This document shows, one piece after another, positions 6,523 through 14,854 of a DNA stretch of 37,155 nucleotides. How positions within the stretch are numbered: the stretch's first letter is position 1; each line of letters begins with the position of its first letter. Below the pieces are notes generated by a model that saw only the letters and a list, made by a program, of their open reading frames with translations, was not told where the DNA came from and ran no database searches. The DNA is from an uncultured archaeon A07HR67 (lineage in GTDB: Archaea; Halobacteriota; Halobacteria; Halobacteriales; Haloferacaceae), in NCBI GenBank assembly GCA_000496175.1, contig KI543168.1, positions 293,433 to 330,587 on the forward strand. Reading direction: 5' to 3'. The position numbers and the translations under genes were made by a program.

Positions 6523-7698
6523 ATGCGTGGACTCAAGATCGGGACCGTCGTCGGCATCCCGGTCAGGCTCAACTGGACGTTCCTCCTCGTGTTGCCGCTT
6601 TTCGCCTACCTCATTGGCACCGAGGTGACGACGATCGCCGGCGTGATGAACGAGACGATGGGAGCCGGCATCGACCCGGCGGCGATCGGCGGGGGCGCCG
6701 TCCCGTGGCTGCTGGGGTTCGCGGCCGTGATCGGGTTGTTCGCCGGCGTGTTGCTCCACGAGTTCGGCCACTCGCTCGTCGCGATGCGCTACGGCTACCA
6801 GATCGAGTCGATCACGTTGTGGCTGCTCGGCGGGCTCGCGAACTTCGCCGAGTTTCCCGAAAACTGGAAACACGAGTTCTGGATCGCGGTCGCCGGGCCG
6901 ATCGTCAGCCTGGGCGTCGGCGCGGTGTGTTACGGCGTGTTCTGGCTCACACCCGCCGGGTCGAACGCCGTGTTGTTCGTCTTCGGCTACCTCGCGTTGT
7001 TGAACGTCGTCCTCGCCGTGTTCAATATGCTTCCCGCCTTCCCGATGGACGGCGGACGCGTCCTGCGGGCGTTGTTGGCGCGGAGCCAGCCGCACGCGCA
7101 GGCGACCCAGCGGGCCGCCACGGTCGGAAAGGTGTTCGCGTTTCTGATGGGCGTCGTCGGCGTGGTGACGTTCCAGCTGTTGTTGATCGTGCTCGCCTTC
7201 TTCGTCTACATCGCCGCCTCCGGCGAGGCCCAGCAGACGACGTTGAAGGCGGTGTTCGAGGACGTCACCGTGGCGGACGTGATGACGCGGCGCGAGGAGC
7301 TCCACACGGTGACGGAGGACACGTCGATCGCCGAGCTGATGAGCCGGATGTTCGAGGAACGACACACCGGCTACCCGGTGATGGACGGCGGCGTCCTCGT
7401 GGGGATGGTCACCCTCGAAGACGCTCGCGAGGTCCGAGAGGTCGAACGCGACGCCTACCGCGTCGAGGACGTGATGGCGACGGACGTGGCGTCTGTCGGT
7501 GCCGACACGGACGCGATGACCGCACTTCAGGCGATGCAAGAACACGGCGTCGGACGACTGCCCGTCCTCGACGCGGACGGAGAACTGGTCGGGCTCATCT
7601 CGCGGTCGGACCTGATGACCGCGTTCAACATCATCCAGACCGGCGGCACCCCGAACGTCATCACCGGGCGCCGCGCCGAGCGGGACGGACTCTTTTGA
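6523..7698 (+). CDS. Site-2-protease-family membrane metalloprotease with two CBS domains
   Basis: A 391-residue M50 intramembrane protease. Residues 1-235 hold about five or six membrane helices, the zinc motif HEFGH at 79-83 with catalytic Glu80, and NMLPAFPMDGGRV around 168-180 with the third zinc ligand Asp176. Residues about 248-385 are two CBS domains (VADVMTRREE and VEDVMATDVA mark their starts, LVGLISRSDL the end of the second). CBS pairs usually bind adenine nucleotides and gate the fused domain, so protease activity may respond to energy or nucleotide state. The substrate is unknown. I chose the ATG at 6523 over a GTG two codons upstream because of the TATA box spacing. Confidence 0.93.
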   Translation: MRGLKIGTVVGIPVRLNWTFLLVLPLFAYLIGTEVTTIAGVMNETMGAGIDPAAIGGGAVPWLLGFAAVIGLFAGVLLHEFGHSLVAMRYGYQIESITLWLLGGLANFAEFPENWKHEFWIAVAGPIVSLGVGAVCYGVFWLTPAGSNAVLFVFGYLALLNVVLAVFNMLPAFPMDGGRVLRALLARSQPHAQATQRAATVGKVFAFLMGVVGVVTFQLLLIVLAFFVYIAASGEAQQTTLKAVFEDVTVADVMTRREELHTVTEDTSIAELMSRMFEERHTGYPVMDGGVLVGMVTLEDAREVREVERDAYRVEDVMATDVASVGADTDAMTALQAMQEHGVGRLPVLDADGELVGLISRSDLMTAFNIIQTGGTPNVITGRRAERDGLF

Positions 7699-7732
7699 GC
7701 CGGCGACGGGTGGACGGGCCGGGCCCGCAGCG

Positions 7733-9275
7733 TCAGTCGTCGGCGGAGCCGACCTTCGTCGAGGCGGTCTCCTCGCCGGTGAGCGCCGAGAGCCGGTCGA
7801 GCGCGTCGACCATCGCGACGACGCTGGCGCGCGTGATGTCGGCGTCGGACGCGGAGACGGAGACGGAGCGGTCGCCGCGCGAGAGGTCGACCGCCACGGT
7901 GACGACGGCGTCCGTTCCGCCGGTGATCGCGTCGACGTGGTACGAATCCAGCTCGAAGGAAACTGCGTCGACGTCGTCGCTGCCGGCGAGGGCCGAGCGA
8001 ACGGCTTCGAGGCCGGCGTCGACCGGCCCGGCGCCGGTTCCGGAGGCGACCCGCTCGTCGTCGCCGACGCGGAGCCGCACGGAGGCGGTCGGCAGGTTGC
8101 CACCCGACGTCGCCGAGAGGTCGACGAGCTCGACGTGACGGTCGCGCTCGCGACCCTGGACGTCCTCGGTGATCGCGAGAAGGTCGGCATCGGTGACGCG
8201 TTTTCCCCGGTCGCCGAGCTCTTTCACCCGAGAAACAACCTCGCGGAGTTCGTCGTCGGTCGACGTCGAGGCCGTGTTCGGCGAGCGCGGCCGCGACGCC
8301 CGCGCGGCCGGCGTGTTTGCCCAACACGAGCCGGCGCTCGCGGCCGACCGTCTCCGGCGGATACGGCTCGTACATCGTCCCGTCTTTCAACGTGCCGTCG
8401 GTGTGGATCCCCGACTCGTGAGCGAAGGCGTTCTCGCCACACACCGCCTTGTTCGGCGGGATCGCGACCCCGGTCACCTCCGAGACGCGCCGGCACAGCC
8501 GGTAGAGCCGCTCGATGTCGACCGTCGCCACGTCGTAACACCGGTCCAACGCGATCGCGACCTCCTCTAAGGCGACGTTGCCGGCGCGCTCGCCGACGCC
8601 GGTGACCGTGCCGTGGACCGTGTCCGCGCCCGCGTTCAATCCGGCGTGGACGTTCGCCAGTCCGAAGCCGAGGTCGTCGTGGGTGTGTAAACTCGTCGGC
8701 CCGAGTTCGGCGAGCCGAGAAACGACCTCGGCGGTGTGTTCGGGACCGGCCGCGCCGACGGTGTCACAGTAGCAGACCCGGTCGGCGCCCGCGTCGAGCC
8801 CGGCCCCCATGAGCCGTTCGAGGTAGTCGAGGTCGGCTCGGGAGCCGTCCTCGCCGAGCACCTCGACCCACAGCCCGTGGTCGGTGGCGTACTCGACGAG
8901 TTCGACGGTGGTGTCGACGACCGCCTCGCGGCTCGAGTTCACCTTCGTCTCGACGTGTTTGTCCGAGGCGGGCACCACGAGGTTGACGCCGTCAACGTCA
9001 CAATCGAGCGCGCGGTCGATGTCGGACCGAACGCCGCGCGCAAAACTGGTGACCGTGGCATCGAGCCCCTCGGCAGCGACGCGGCGGATTCCCTCGCGTT
9101 CGCCCTCGGAGGTACACGCCGAGCCGGCCTCGATCACGTGAACGCCCGCGGCGTCGAGCTCGCGGGCGACGTCGACCTTGTTCGTCGGGGTGAGCGAGAC
9201 GCCCGGCATCTGTTCGCCGTCGCGCAGCGTCGTGTCCAGCAGCTGTACCTCCTCGAGATGGGTGAAGTGGTTCAA
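7733..9275 (-). pseudogene. leuA: 2-isopropylmalate / (R)-citramalate synthase family gene, frameshifted
   Basis: The N-terminal part, 9275 to about 8262, codes the HMGL-like TIM barrel: LLDTTLRDGEQMPGVSLT, SLHTHDDLGFGLANVHAG with the metal His pair, and NAFAHESGIHTDG. Near 8258-8262 the frame breaks: reading on gives Arg-rich nonsense, whereas shifting by one base restores DDELREVVSRVKELG and the allosteric/dimerisation domain to 7733 (GTGAGPVDAGLEAVR, VVAMVDALDRL). One extra C in the run GTCGACCGACGAC (minus strand) explains it. The intact enzyme would condense acetyl-CoA with a 2-oxoacid for leucine or isoleucine synthesis; LeuA versus CimA specificity cannot be decided. I prefer the TTG start at 9275, preceded by GGAGATCC; an in-frame GTG at 9404 is an alternative. 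Either a true pseudogene or a sequencing error. Confidence 0.85.
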
Positions 9276-9455
9276 AAGGATCTCCGTTGTCGGTGGGTGT
9301 TGGTCGGGGGACGCCGCGTCCCGGGTGTCGGGGTGATCGTTACGATCGGCGAATTTCACGGCCAGCCGCCGTGAAGCGACTTGCTCTATCCTCCGAACGA
9401 CCACGAGTGTCTCGTGTCATTCGTGTCCGTGGTGATGGGTCACAGGATAATAAAT
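9276..9455 (-). promoter_or_regulatory. Leader region of the LeuA-family gene
   Basis: The minus-strand promoter box is ATTTATTAT (9447-9455). If transcription starts near 9424 the leader is about 150 bases, unusual among the leaderless genes here. It contains the 26-codon upstream ORF, then a perfect hairpin GGGACG-CGG-CGTCCC at 9308-9322, then GGAGATCC six bases before the TTG at 9275, a fair Shine-Dalgarno match. The order (short ORF, hairpin, SD) resembles a translational control leader, but no regulation has been shown. Confidence 0.4.
9340..9420 (-). CDS. Possible leaderless upstream ORF, 26 codons
   Basis: This ATG is the first after the TATA box at 9447-9455 and would lie within about five bases of the predicted transcript start, so it should be translated as a leaderless message. 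It codes MTRDTRGRSEDRASRF and ten more residues, then TAA. It has eight arginines, including AGA and CGA codons, and no leucine, isoleucine or valine except one Ile. It lies out of frame with the LeuA-family gene and ends about 65 bases before that gene's likely TTG start. It may be a leader peptide, or a remnant of an older N-terminus; it has no recognisable domain. Confidence 0.35.
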   Translation of the reverse strand: MTRDTRGRSEDRASRFTAAGREIRRS

Positions 9456-10982: not shown

Positions 10983-11014
10983 TCGTAAACCGATGCGCTA
11001 AAATAGGTTTACGA
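10983..11014 (+). promoter_or_regulatory. BirA-type biotin operator overlapping the bioY promoter
   Basis: TCGTAAACC at 10983-10991 and its exact reverse complement GGTTTACGA at 11006-11014 are separated by 14 bases. The known BirA operator consensus is TTGTAAACC-N14/15-GGTTTACAA, so there is one difference per half-site. The spacer contains CTAAAATA, the TATA-like box about 27 bases before the bioY ATG at 11028. Bound repressor would therefore cover the promoter. Because the genes downstream are a biotin transporter, biotin-dependent repression is strongly indicated. Confidence 0.85.
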
Positions 11015-11027
11015 ATGAGAATCGAAC

Positions 11028-11609
11028 ATGTCGACCCGAACCGAGGACGTCGACCTCGTCGGCGACGAGACGGCGATCAATCTCGCCCGTGCCGCGTTGT
11101 TCGCGGCGCTCGTCGGCGCGTTCGCGTACGTCACGTTTCCGAACCCCGTCTCGCCCGTCTCGGTGACGCTCCAGGTGCTCGGCGTCTTCTTGGCCGGGAT
11201 CTACCTCGGGCCAGTCTGGGGGGCGGCCTCGCTCGTGTTCTACCTAGCCGCCGGTGGCCTCGGCGCACCGGTGTTCGAGGGCGGCTCCGCCGGCGTCGGC
11301 GTGCTCGTGGGGCAGTCGGCCGGCTACCTCTGGTCGTACCCGCTGGCGGCCGGCGCCGTTGGCGCGGTCGTTCACCGCGGCGTTGACCTCCGTGACCCCG
11401 CGTCCGTGAGCCTCGTGACGCTCGCCGCCGCGATGGGTCTCGGAACGGCCGTCATCTACGCGTTCGGGGTCGCCGGGCTCGCAATCGTCCTCTCGTTGGA
11501 TCCCGTCGAGGCCGTGACGGTCGGAGCCGTCGCGTTTCTGCCGGCAGAGGCGGTGAAGCTCGCCGCCGCGGTCGGGATCGTTCGGTCGGACGCGATCGCG
11601 GCCGCCTGA
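11028..11609 (+). CDS. bioY: Biotin transporter BioY (ECF S component)
   Basis: A 193-residue integral membrane protein with about six helices, the substrate-binding S component of an energy-coupling-factor transporter. PNPVSPVSVTLQVLGVFLAGIYLGP near residues 38-62 and FYLAAGGLGAPVFEGG with VGQSAGYLWSYPLAA are the conserved BioY segments. It captures biotin outside and is turned over by the ATPase and T component encoded next (bioM, bioN). Its ATG sits at leaderless distance from a TATA box embedded in a BirA-type operator, so expression should drop when biotin is plentiful. No biotin synthesis genes are in the window. Confidence 0.95.
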   Translation: MSTRTEDVDLVGDETAINLARAALFAALVGAFAYVTFPNPVSPVSVTLQVLGVFLAGIYLGPVWGAASLVFYLAAGGLGAPVFEGGSAGVGVLVGQSAGYLWSYPLAAGAVGAVVHRGVDLRDPASVSLVTLAAAMGLGTAVIYAFGVAGLAIVLSLDPVEAVTVGAVAFLPAEAVKLAAAVGIVRSDAIAAA

Positions 11610-11613
11610 GGCC

Positions 11614-12378
11614 GTGATCGAACTCGAAGCCGTCACGTGTCGGTACGACGGGCGCCGTGGCGGAGACGGCGAGGCCGTCGTCGCCGTCGACGATATCAGT
11701 CTCTCGATTCCGGACGGCGAGTTTCTGGTCGTCGCCGGGGCAAACGGCTCCGGTAAGACTACGCTCGTTCGGACGTTCAACGGGCTCGTGACCCCGGAGG
11801 CTGGCCGCGTCTCGGTGAACGAGACTCCCGTGGAAGCGGACCTCGTCGCCGCTCGTGCCGCGGTCGGCATGGTGTTTCAACAGCCGCGCGACCAGTTCGT
11901 CTCGGCGACCGTCGGCGGCGACGTGGCGTTCGGTCCGGAGAACCTCGGGCTCGCACGCGACGAGGTCGACCGGCGGGTCGCCGACGCGCTCGCGGCGGTG
12001 AAGATGACCGGCCGGGAATCGGACCGGATCGCGGCGTTGTCGGGCGGCGAGCGCGAACGCGTCGCCGTCGCCGGCGCGCTCGCGATGGAGCCGTCGCACC
12101 TCGTGTGCGACGAGCCGTTCACCGGCCTCGACGAACCCGCCCGGCGGGCGGTGCTCAACCGGCTGCGTGCCCTCCACGAGGCGGGAACCGGGGTCGTCGT
12201 CGTCACTCACGACCTCCGCGACGTGATCGGGCTCGCAGACCGGGTCGTCGGCCTCGCCGACGGGCGGATCGTCGTCGACGGCCCTCCCGAGACAGCCGCC
12301 GCGGACCTCGCCGCGCTCGGCGTGCGGGTGCCAGACAGGATCGAGACCCCCGCCGCTTCCGGCCCGGGCGACCCGTGA
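11614..12378 (+). CDS. bioM: ECF transporter ATP-binding protein (BioM-like)
   Basis: A 254-residue ABC ATPase that powers the biotin transporter from the cytoplasmic face. It has Walker A GANGSGKTT (about 42-50), Q-loop VFQQPRDQF, signature ALSGGERERVAVAGAL, Walker B HLVCDEPF and switch His in VVVVTHDL. The order and length are normal for EcfA/BioM. It starts with GTG four bases after the bioY stop, and its stop overlaps the GTG of bioN. A single ATPase gene next to bioY and bioN implies an ATPase homodimer, as in BioMNY systems. Confidence 0.94.
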   Translation: MIELEAVTCRYDGRRGGDGEAVVAVDDISLSIPDGEFLVVAGANGSGKTTLVRTFNGLVTPEAGRVSVNETPVEADLVAARAAVGMVFQQPRDQFVSATVGGDVAFGPENLGLARDEVDRRVADALAAVKMTGRESDRIAALSGGERERVAVAGALAMEPSHLVCDEPFTGLDEPARRAVLNRLRALHEAGTGVVVVTHDLRDVIGLADRVVGLADGRIVVDGPPETAAADLAALGVRVPDRIETPAASGPGDP

Positions 12379-13088
12379 CACTCGCGTACGTCCCGGGCGA
12401 CTCGCTCGCACACCGGCTCGATCCTCGGTCGAAACTGGTCGTCCAGGGCGGCGTCGTGGCGGCCGCCTACGCGTACACGACCCCGACGGGTCTGCTCGCG
12501 CTCACGGCGCTCGCCTGGGGCTGTCTGTGGGCCGCCGGAGGCGACCGCCGTGACCTCTGGGAGTATCGGTTCGCGCTGCCGGTCCTCGTTGTTGCCCCCT
12601 TCGTCGCCGGCGTCGCTCTCGGCGAGCCGTGGTTCCGCGTCGGCCGTGCCGTCGACACGGCGCTCGCCGGGTATCGAGTCGTGGTCGTCCTCGTCGTCGG
12701 CGCGGCATACGTTCGGTCGACGCCCGTCCGGGACTCCCGAGCGGCGATCCATCACACGGTTCCGGGGACGGCCGGCGCGGTTCTCGGCGTCGGCGTCGCG
12801 CTCGTGTTCCGGTTTCTCCCGTTGGTGATCCAGGACCTGCGAAGCGCACGCGCGGCGGTCAAGAGCCGAGGCGGCGGTCGGCTTCCAGTTCACGAGCGGA
12901 TGCGACTGGTGGCGGTCGCGGGCGTGAACCGCGCGCTCGGCCGCGCCGACCGGCTGGGAGCCGCGCTCGCCGCGCGGTGTTTCGCGTGGAACCCGACGCT
13001 CCCGGCGCTGGCGTTCGACGACACGGACTCCCTCGCGCTCGCGCTCGGCGGCGGGCTGTTCGCGGCCGCGCTGGCGACCGTACTGTGA
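12375..13088 (+). CDS. bioN: ECF transporter transmembrane T component (BioN-like)
   Basis: A 237-residue membrane protein of the EcfT/CbiQ family that couples the ATPase to BioY. The N-terminus YVPGDSLAHRLDPRSKL is a typical CbiQ/EcfT opening, followed by about five hydrophobic helices; the cytoplasmic coupling helices are around residues 155-180 (DLRSARAAVKSRGG, similar to the Ala-Arg motifs that contact the ATPase). It starts at a GTG overlapping the bioM stop (GTGA), so translation is coupled. It is the last gene of the bioYMN operon and converges on the small gene at 13129. Confidence 0.9.
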   Translation: MTLAYVPGDSLAHRLDPRSKLVVQGGVVAAAYAYTTPTGLLALTALAWGCLWAAGGDRRDLWEYRFALPVLVVAPFVAGVALGEPWFRVGRAVDTALAGYRVVVVLVVGAAYVRSTPVRDSRAAIHHTVPGTAGAVLGVGVALVFRFLPLVIQDLRSARAAVKSRGGGRLPVHERMRLVAVAGVNRALGRADRLGAALAARCFAWNPTLPALAFDDTDSLALALGGGLFAAALATVL

Positions 13089-13128: not shown

Positions 13129-13428
13129 TCAGGCGCTTCTGGCCGACGGCCCGGCGTCGTCGGTTCGACACAACAGGGCGCGGCCGAGCGCGCGGTCGCG
13201 GATCGGCGCGTCGCCCAGATACTCGACGAGCGCGTCGCGGAGCAGCGCCACCTCCGGCGGGTCGAGCGGGCGTCCCTGCTCGATGTCGCGGAGCGGCCGC
13301 CGGTAGCGAGCGACGTCCTCGCCGGTCTCGGCGGCGCGGTCGCAGGCGTCGAGGAGGGCCGCGTGTGCGACCCACGCCTCCTCGCGGGAGAACGCCACGC
13401 CGCTCGCGTCGGTTCCTGGAGGGGCCAT
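13129..13428 (-). CDS. Small conserved haloarchaeal protein of unknown function
   Basis: A 99-residue acidic helical protein: SREEAWVAHAALLDACDRA, then PPEVALLRDALVEYLGDAP, then RDRALGRALLCR. It looks like a small helical bundle. From memory it may belong to DUF7853, but this is not certain. A strong minus-strand TATA-like box from ATAATAAAA at 13453-13461 lies at leaderless distance from the ATG. It is convergent with bioN and upstream, in the same direction, of the aminotransferase remnant, but about 80 bases away. No catalytic motif is visible. Confidence 0.7.
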   Translation of the reverse strand: MAPPGTDASGVAFSREEAWVAHAALLDACDRAAETGEDVARYRRPLRDIEQGRPLDPPEVALLRDALVEYLGDAPIRDRALGRALLCRTDDAGPSARSA

Positions 13429-13512: not shown

Positions 13513-14854
13513 TCAGCCGTCCATGGCGGCGTCGGAGATTTCGAGCGCTTCGTCGAGCGCCGCGATCGCCTCGTCGACCTCCTCCGTGGTGATCGTCAAC
13601 GGCGGTGTCACGACAATCGTGTTCACCGAGGTGTAGAAGTAGACGCCGTTCTCGAGCGCGTGGGCCCCCACCTCGTCGAGCACGGTTTGTCGGCTCGAAA
13701 CCTTGTCGCTGCGCTCCTCGAACGGCACGCGCTCCGTCTCGCTCCGGGTGAGCTCGAGCCCCTGATGGAGCCCGACGCCGCGGCGCTCGCCGACGCTGGG
13801 GTGTCGCTCGGCCAGCGATTCGAGCTCGCCGCGCAGATACGCGCCCATCTCGCGTGCGTTCGCGACCAACTGTTCTTGTTCGTAGGTTTCGATGGCCGCC
13901 ACTCCGGCCGCGCAGGCGACGGGATGGCCCGAGAAGGTGTGACCCTGGTTCAACAGCTCGTCCTCGAAGTGGTCGGCGACCGCCTCGGTGACGGTCGTCG
14001 CCGCGAGCGGCTGGTACGAGCCCGTGAGCCCCTTCGCCATCGTGATGATGTCCGGCTCGGCGTCGTAGAGGGTCGACGCGAACCACTCGCCCGTCCGGCC
14101 GAACCCGGTCATCACCTCGTCACAGATCAACAGCGCGCCGTGGTCGTGGGCGATCCGTTGGAGCCGGGAGAGGTAGTCGTCGGGCGGCGTCAACACGCCG
14201 TTCGATCCCACGAGCGGCTCGACCAGCACGGCTGCGACCGTTCCCCCCTCCAGTTCTAACATCTCGTCGATGTACGCCAGGCTCTCGTCCGGGTCCAGAC
14301 TCGAGCCGTACGCGTACGGGTCGGGACCCTTTATCATTCCGGGCACCGCCGGCTGGACCTCCGGGACCCTGTGCGACCCGACGGGGGTCGCCCGACGCCG
14401 ACAACGACGCGGCGGTCGCGCCGTGATACGAGCGGTACCGCGAGAGAATCTTGTGTTTGCCGGTGTACGCTCTGGCGATCTTAAACGCCACCTCGTTGGC
14501 CTCGGTGCCGCTCGTCGAGTAGAACGTCTGTTTCAACGAGCCGGGCGTGATCTCGGCGAGTTTCTCTGAGAGTCGGGCGCGTGGCTCCGTCGACCAGCCG
14601 GGGCTGACGTACGGCACCGTCCGGACCTGGTCTGCGACGGCGTCCGACACGCGCTCGGCGTCGTAGCCGAGGCTGGTACAAACGTACTGGCTGCTGAAAT
14701 CCAGAATCGAGTCTCCCGCGGCCGTCACGAGCCGCGGTCCCTCGGTGTCGACGATCTGGGTCGGATCGAAGTCCCGCTGACGGGTCCAAGTACCGAGCGT
14801 GTACTCCTGATCGAGCCGTTCGATCTCCGTCTGATCCGAGTGGTGTTGAGCCAT
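13513..14854 (-). pseudogene. Class III PLP aminotransferase, frameshifted
   Basis: Two frames together give a full class III (omega-amino acid) aminotransferase. The first, 14854 to about 14370, has the start MAQHHSDQTEIERL, the cofactor-site STSGTEANEVAFK and SRYRSYHGAT, and ends in SASGDPRR. The second, about 14370 to 13513, resumes with VPEVQPAVPGMIKGPDPYAYG, contains LICDEVMTGFGRTG and the PLP-lysine segment TMAKGLTGSYQPLAA. A one-base gain or two-base loss near 14363-14372, in CAGGGTCCCGGAGG on the minus strand, separates them. Divergent mmsA suggests the product acted on a beta-amino acid such as beta-alanine or 3-aminoisobutyrate, giving the semialdehyde that MmsA oxidises. Either disrupted or a sequencing error; elsewhere the coding looks intact. 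Confidence 0.87.

Follow-up and report, generated by a model that had tools for sequence, protein, structure and literature searches.

A predicted BirA operator encloses the core promoter of the biotin transporter operon bioYMN in haloarchaea

A palindrome directly upstream of bioYMN in the uncultured archaeon A07HR67 is, in all probability, the operator of a group II BirA, which would repress the operon in a biotin-dependent manner by blocking TBP/TFB. The palindrome lies in a stretch of 37,155 nucleotides (the window). The operator sequence, its conservation in other genomes, an HTH-bearing BirA and the association between them are direct observations, and the assignment to BirA is strongly supported, as strongly as comparative genomics allows.

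The two arms of the palindrome, read directly from the sequence, are exact reverse complements of each other, in agreement with the first-pass annotation, which had described perfect inverted half-sites with a 14-base spacer and a TATA-like element inside it (Table 1). The annotation had also called the palindrome a near-consensus BirA operator, and this description stands. When compared with the published consensus TTGTAAACC-[N14/15]-GGTTTACAA (PMC545781), 16 of 18 half-site bases agree and the spacer of 14 fits, with the paired C/G at position 2 accounting for both mismatches. The span originally given, 10983-11028, was right at its start and too long at its end: the whole palindrome occupies positions 10983-11014, and 11028 is the start codon of bioY.

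Table 1. Predicted operator, core promoter and downstream genes in the window (plus strand coordinates)
Feature	Position	Strand	Evidence
Left BirA half-site (predicted), TCGTAAACC	10983..10991	+	sequence; no variation at the G, AA and CC positions among 59 bioY promoters
14-base spacer containing the core promoter, GATGCGCTAAAATA	10992..11005	+	sequence; nearly all bioY sites of haloarchaea share the spacing of 14
TATA-like element, CTAAAATA, -30..-23 from the bioY ATG	10998..11005	+	sequence; TTnAA (10998-11002) kept in aligned relatives
Right BirA half-site (predicted), GGTTTACGA	11006..11014	+	reverse complement of left arm; no variation at five core positions (GTT..AC) among the 59 promoters
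bioY, biotin-specific ECF transporter S component	11028..11609	+	Pfam BioY, E=2.3e-33
bioM-like ECF ATPase	11614..12378	+	Pfam ABC_tran, E=1.2e-27
bioN-like ECF transmembrane (T) component	12378..13088	+	Pfam CbiQ, E=3.6e-12

No biotin synthase gene (bioB) was found in the source genome, which is 82% complete, or in 12 further genomes from its genus; the identical search detected bioB in six other haloarchaea. On the basis of this negative search, the source organism is probably dependent on biotin uptake. The minus strand immediately beyond bioYMN carries a gene for a small DUF7853 protein (13129-13428), a family of unknown function. Two further genes on the minus strand of the window appear to be broken. 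A gene of the LeuA/homocitrate synthase type is apparently split by a frameshift (7527-9404 and 7733-8227), with HMGL-like and partial HCS_D2 matches in one frame and LeuA_dimer in another, and may represent a pseudogene or an assembly error. A class-III aminotransferase gene is split over two overlapping frames (13513-14346 and 14120-14854, covering profile positions 175-403 and 11-144), again by a frameshift or an assembly error.

Conservation of the operator was assessed at 80 named haloarchaeal bioY loci by scoring the best site within 360 bases around the bioY start over 14 core bases. At least 12 of the 14 core bases were present in 68 of the 80 loci, a score reached by none of 400 dinucleotide shuffles and by none of 322 other windows taken from these loci. 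The remaining picture is not uniform, as the sites of some bioY genes are weak (11/14 or lower) or displaced, which counts against the BirA reading. Among the 59 promoter-proximal sites, 58 begin at -45 or -44 relative to the bioY start. Across these 59 sites the arms hardly vary, reaching 2.0 bits at ten core positions, and the spacer keeps TTnAA at -30..-26, whereas the flanks show no conservation, the upstream flank being near random. The TATA-like element within the spacer is thus conserved across the 59 loci, so that the predicted operator overlaps the bioY promoter. Because arms and TTnAA are conserved, the start position is fixed and the flank is near random, the pattern reads as the predicted footprint of a regulator wrapped around the core promoter. 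The distance of the TATA-like element from the ATG would fit a leaderless bioY transcript, since 72% of protein-coding transcripts are leaderless in Haloferax volcanii (PMC4983044). We also note that a contig titled as a Bacteroidetes MAG carries a haloarchaeal-type BioY (60% identity) and a BirA-like site; the contig is probably mis-binned.

The operator sequence was also searched for without reference to bioY. In the 2.89 Mb source genome the palindrome is single-copy even when up to 3 mismatches are allowed, and the exact palindrome matched once in the window and not at all in 100 window shuffles. A class-wide search of 391 haloarchaeal genomes with the exact pattern TNGTAAACC-N13-15-GGTTTACNA returned 49 sites in 47 genomes, and the reversed control pattern returned none in the same genomes. 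The sites were located before bioY (44), before bioB (4) or before neither (1). The first-pass annotation had suggested scanning for the motif in front of bio genes, and the scan came out as it anticipated: the sole match in the source genome precedes bioYMN, and 48 of the 49 class-wide sites precede bioY or bioB. The one exception falls within a reading frame of DtxR/MntR-like type and was discounted as a chance match. All six bioB genomes examined have a 13/14 or 14/14 site, with the right arm overlapping the bioB start. At seven bioB loci, the right arm lying on the start codon encodes the first residues of the protein (GTG GTT TAC GA = MVYE...), and operator and protein N-terminus are therefore constrained together.

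The arrangement suggests how the switch may operate. When biotin is plentiful, BirA would form biotinyl-AMP and then dimerise, and the two N-terminal winged helices of the dimer would seat on both half-sites, across the TATA/BRE region. BirA seated in this way would block TBP/TFB loading, and no leaderless bioYMN transcript would be made. When biotin is scarce, BirA would be unliganded or consumed as ligase and would be off the operator, allowing the biotin importer to be made. We infer BirA binding to the operator, its biotin dependence and the TBP/TFB block, and consider repression through that block a sound reading. It is rather unlikely that BirA binds but acts mainly in another way, by preventing RNA polymerase from being recruited or from escaping once TBP/TFB have loaded, or even by activating. 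The right half-site (-22..-14) is downstream of the TATA-like element, and a bound dimer could therefore also obstruct the polymerase. However, arms on either side of the TATA-like core, in a constant position in 58 of the 59 aligned promoters, are the geometry expected for occlusion, and a right arm on the start codon, as in bioB, is also typical of repression.

The candidate regulator is encoded on a different contig from bioYMN. Two proteins of the biotin/lipoate ligase family are encoded in the source genome, and one of them is a BirA in which Pfam detects HTH_11 at the N-terminus, followed by BPL_LplA_LipB and BPL_C; a BirA with an N-terminal HTH had been anticipated from the operator. 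The protein is 30% identical to E. coli BirA over nearly the whole length. Its recognition-helix region reads SRAAVWKAVEGLR versus SRAAINKHIQTLR in E. coli BirA, and the haloarchaeal form of this region (SRAAVWKHVEALR type) is closely similar to that of the E. coli protein. An AlphaFold model (pLDDT 91.5, pTM 0.87) shows an HTH, a ligase and a C-terminal domain, and it matches the S. aureus and E. coli BirA structures along the whole chain; the higher rmsd over the full-length protein probably reflects domain orientation. By Pfam, alignment with E. coli BirA and predicted structure, the protein thus has the wHTH, catalytic and C-terminal domains of a group II biotin protein ligase. The HTH-bearing form of BirA is known from several bacterial and archaeal lineages (PMC5343134).

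The search for BirA relatives was positive in 368 of 382 haloarchaea. Among the matches listed, alignments start at query residue 1-3 and therefore include the HTH. The presence of BirA alone discriminates little, because it is almost universal in this class. All 14 haloarchaea without detectable BirA also lack BioY and an exact site; Haloferax volcanii, a control in the BioY search, does have BioY. Outside the class, a phylum-wide search with a looser, more degenerate palindrome gave 37 matches versus 7 for the reversed control, and because of this background only matches adjoining bio genes were counted. In 12 of the fetched loci, all from other classes, the looser palindrome lies between a BirA-like gene and bioYMN, so that regulator and operator are tied by position.

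The half-site cores, GTAAACC and GGTTTAC, are identical to those of E. coli bioO, which has the form TTGTAAACC-N16-GGTTTACAA, although its spacer is 16 bases rather than the 14 of the source operator. The outermost bases differ as well, being TCG...CGA in the source operator and TTG...CAA in the consensus and in E. coli (second base C/G for T/A), a point against the assignment to BirA. GTcAACC/GGTTgAC variants, reported for delta-proteobacterial BirA sites (PMC545781), also occur among the haloarchaeal sites. The system resembles the bacterial BirA regulon in its targets (bioY and bioB), in its HTH-ligase regulator and in the placement of the operator around the promoter. It differs from E. 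coli in that the promoter is of the TATA type, TBP/TFB-dependent and probably leaderless, and in that the regulon of the source genus seems to be bioYMN alone. The same operon type is found in Corynebacterium glutamicum, where biotin controls it (PMC3398298), and biotin-dependent expression is likewise expected in the source organism. In C. glutamicum, however, biotin genes are controlled by the TetR-type regulator BioQ, as the title of a paper cited in PMC4877710 indicates, whereas here the evidence points to BirA.

Binding of the palindrome by a different biotin- or growth-responsive regulator is very improbable. Winged-helix regulators are numerous in haloarchaea, and the HTH of BirA itself shows a weak similarity, below the cut-off, to another haloarchaeal HTH family, HVO_A0261_N. 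We nevertheless rejected this explanation on the identity of the half-site cores to bioO and their agreement with the published BirA consensus, the adjacency of birA and operator in the 12 loci, the restriction of targets to bioY and bioB, and the joint absence of site and bioY from genomes without detectable BirA. That the palindrome arose by chance, or is a conserved promoter sequence of a generic kind to which no regulator binds, is next to inconceivable and is refuted by the comparative data, for although the core promoter does sit in the spacer, neither shuffles nor control windows reached the threshold score, the palindrome is unique in the genome, and the arms are conserved while the flanks are not.

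A search of the available literature found no experimental work on BirA regulation in haloarchaea or methanogens. Rodionov and colleagues, in 2002, reportedly described BirA as the first regulator whose binding signal is conserved between the two domains. The title of their paper describes the BirA signal as conserved in Eubacteria and Archaea (Rodionov et al., 2002). Since BirA sites common to bacteria and archaea have already been published, the haloarchaeal operator is no new mechanism.

BirA and its operator nevertheless form a rare repressor-operator pair that is recognisably conserved between bacteria and archaea. It appears likely that, throughout an archaeal class, a biotin repressor of bacterial type acts on an almost bacterial operator set precisely around the TATA box of a promoter for leaderless transcripts, that one repressor-operator pair serves both the sigma70 and the TBP/TFB machineries, and that the pair is old enough to span much of the phylum. 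For haloarchaeal biology, this would be a clean and predictable regulatory switch that is tractable where genetic methods exist (Haloferax and relatives), and a biotin-tunable promoter would be a useful tool for expression in haloarchaea.
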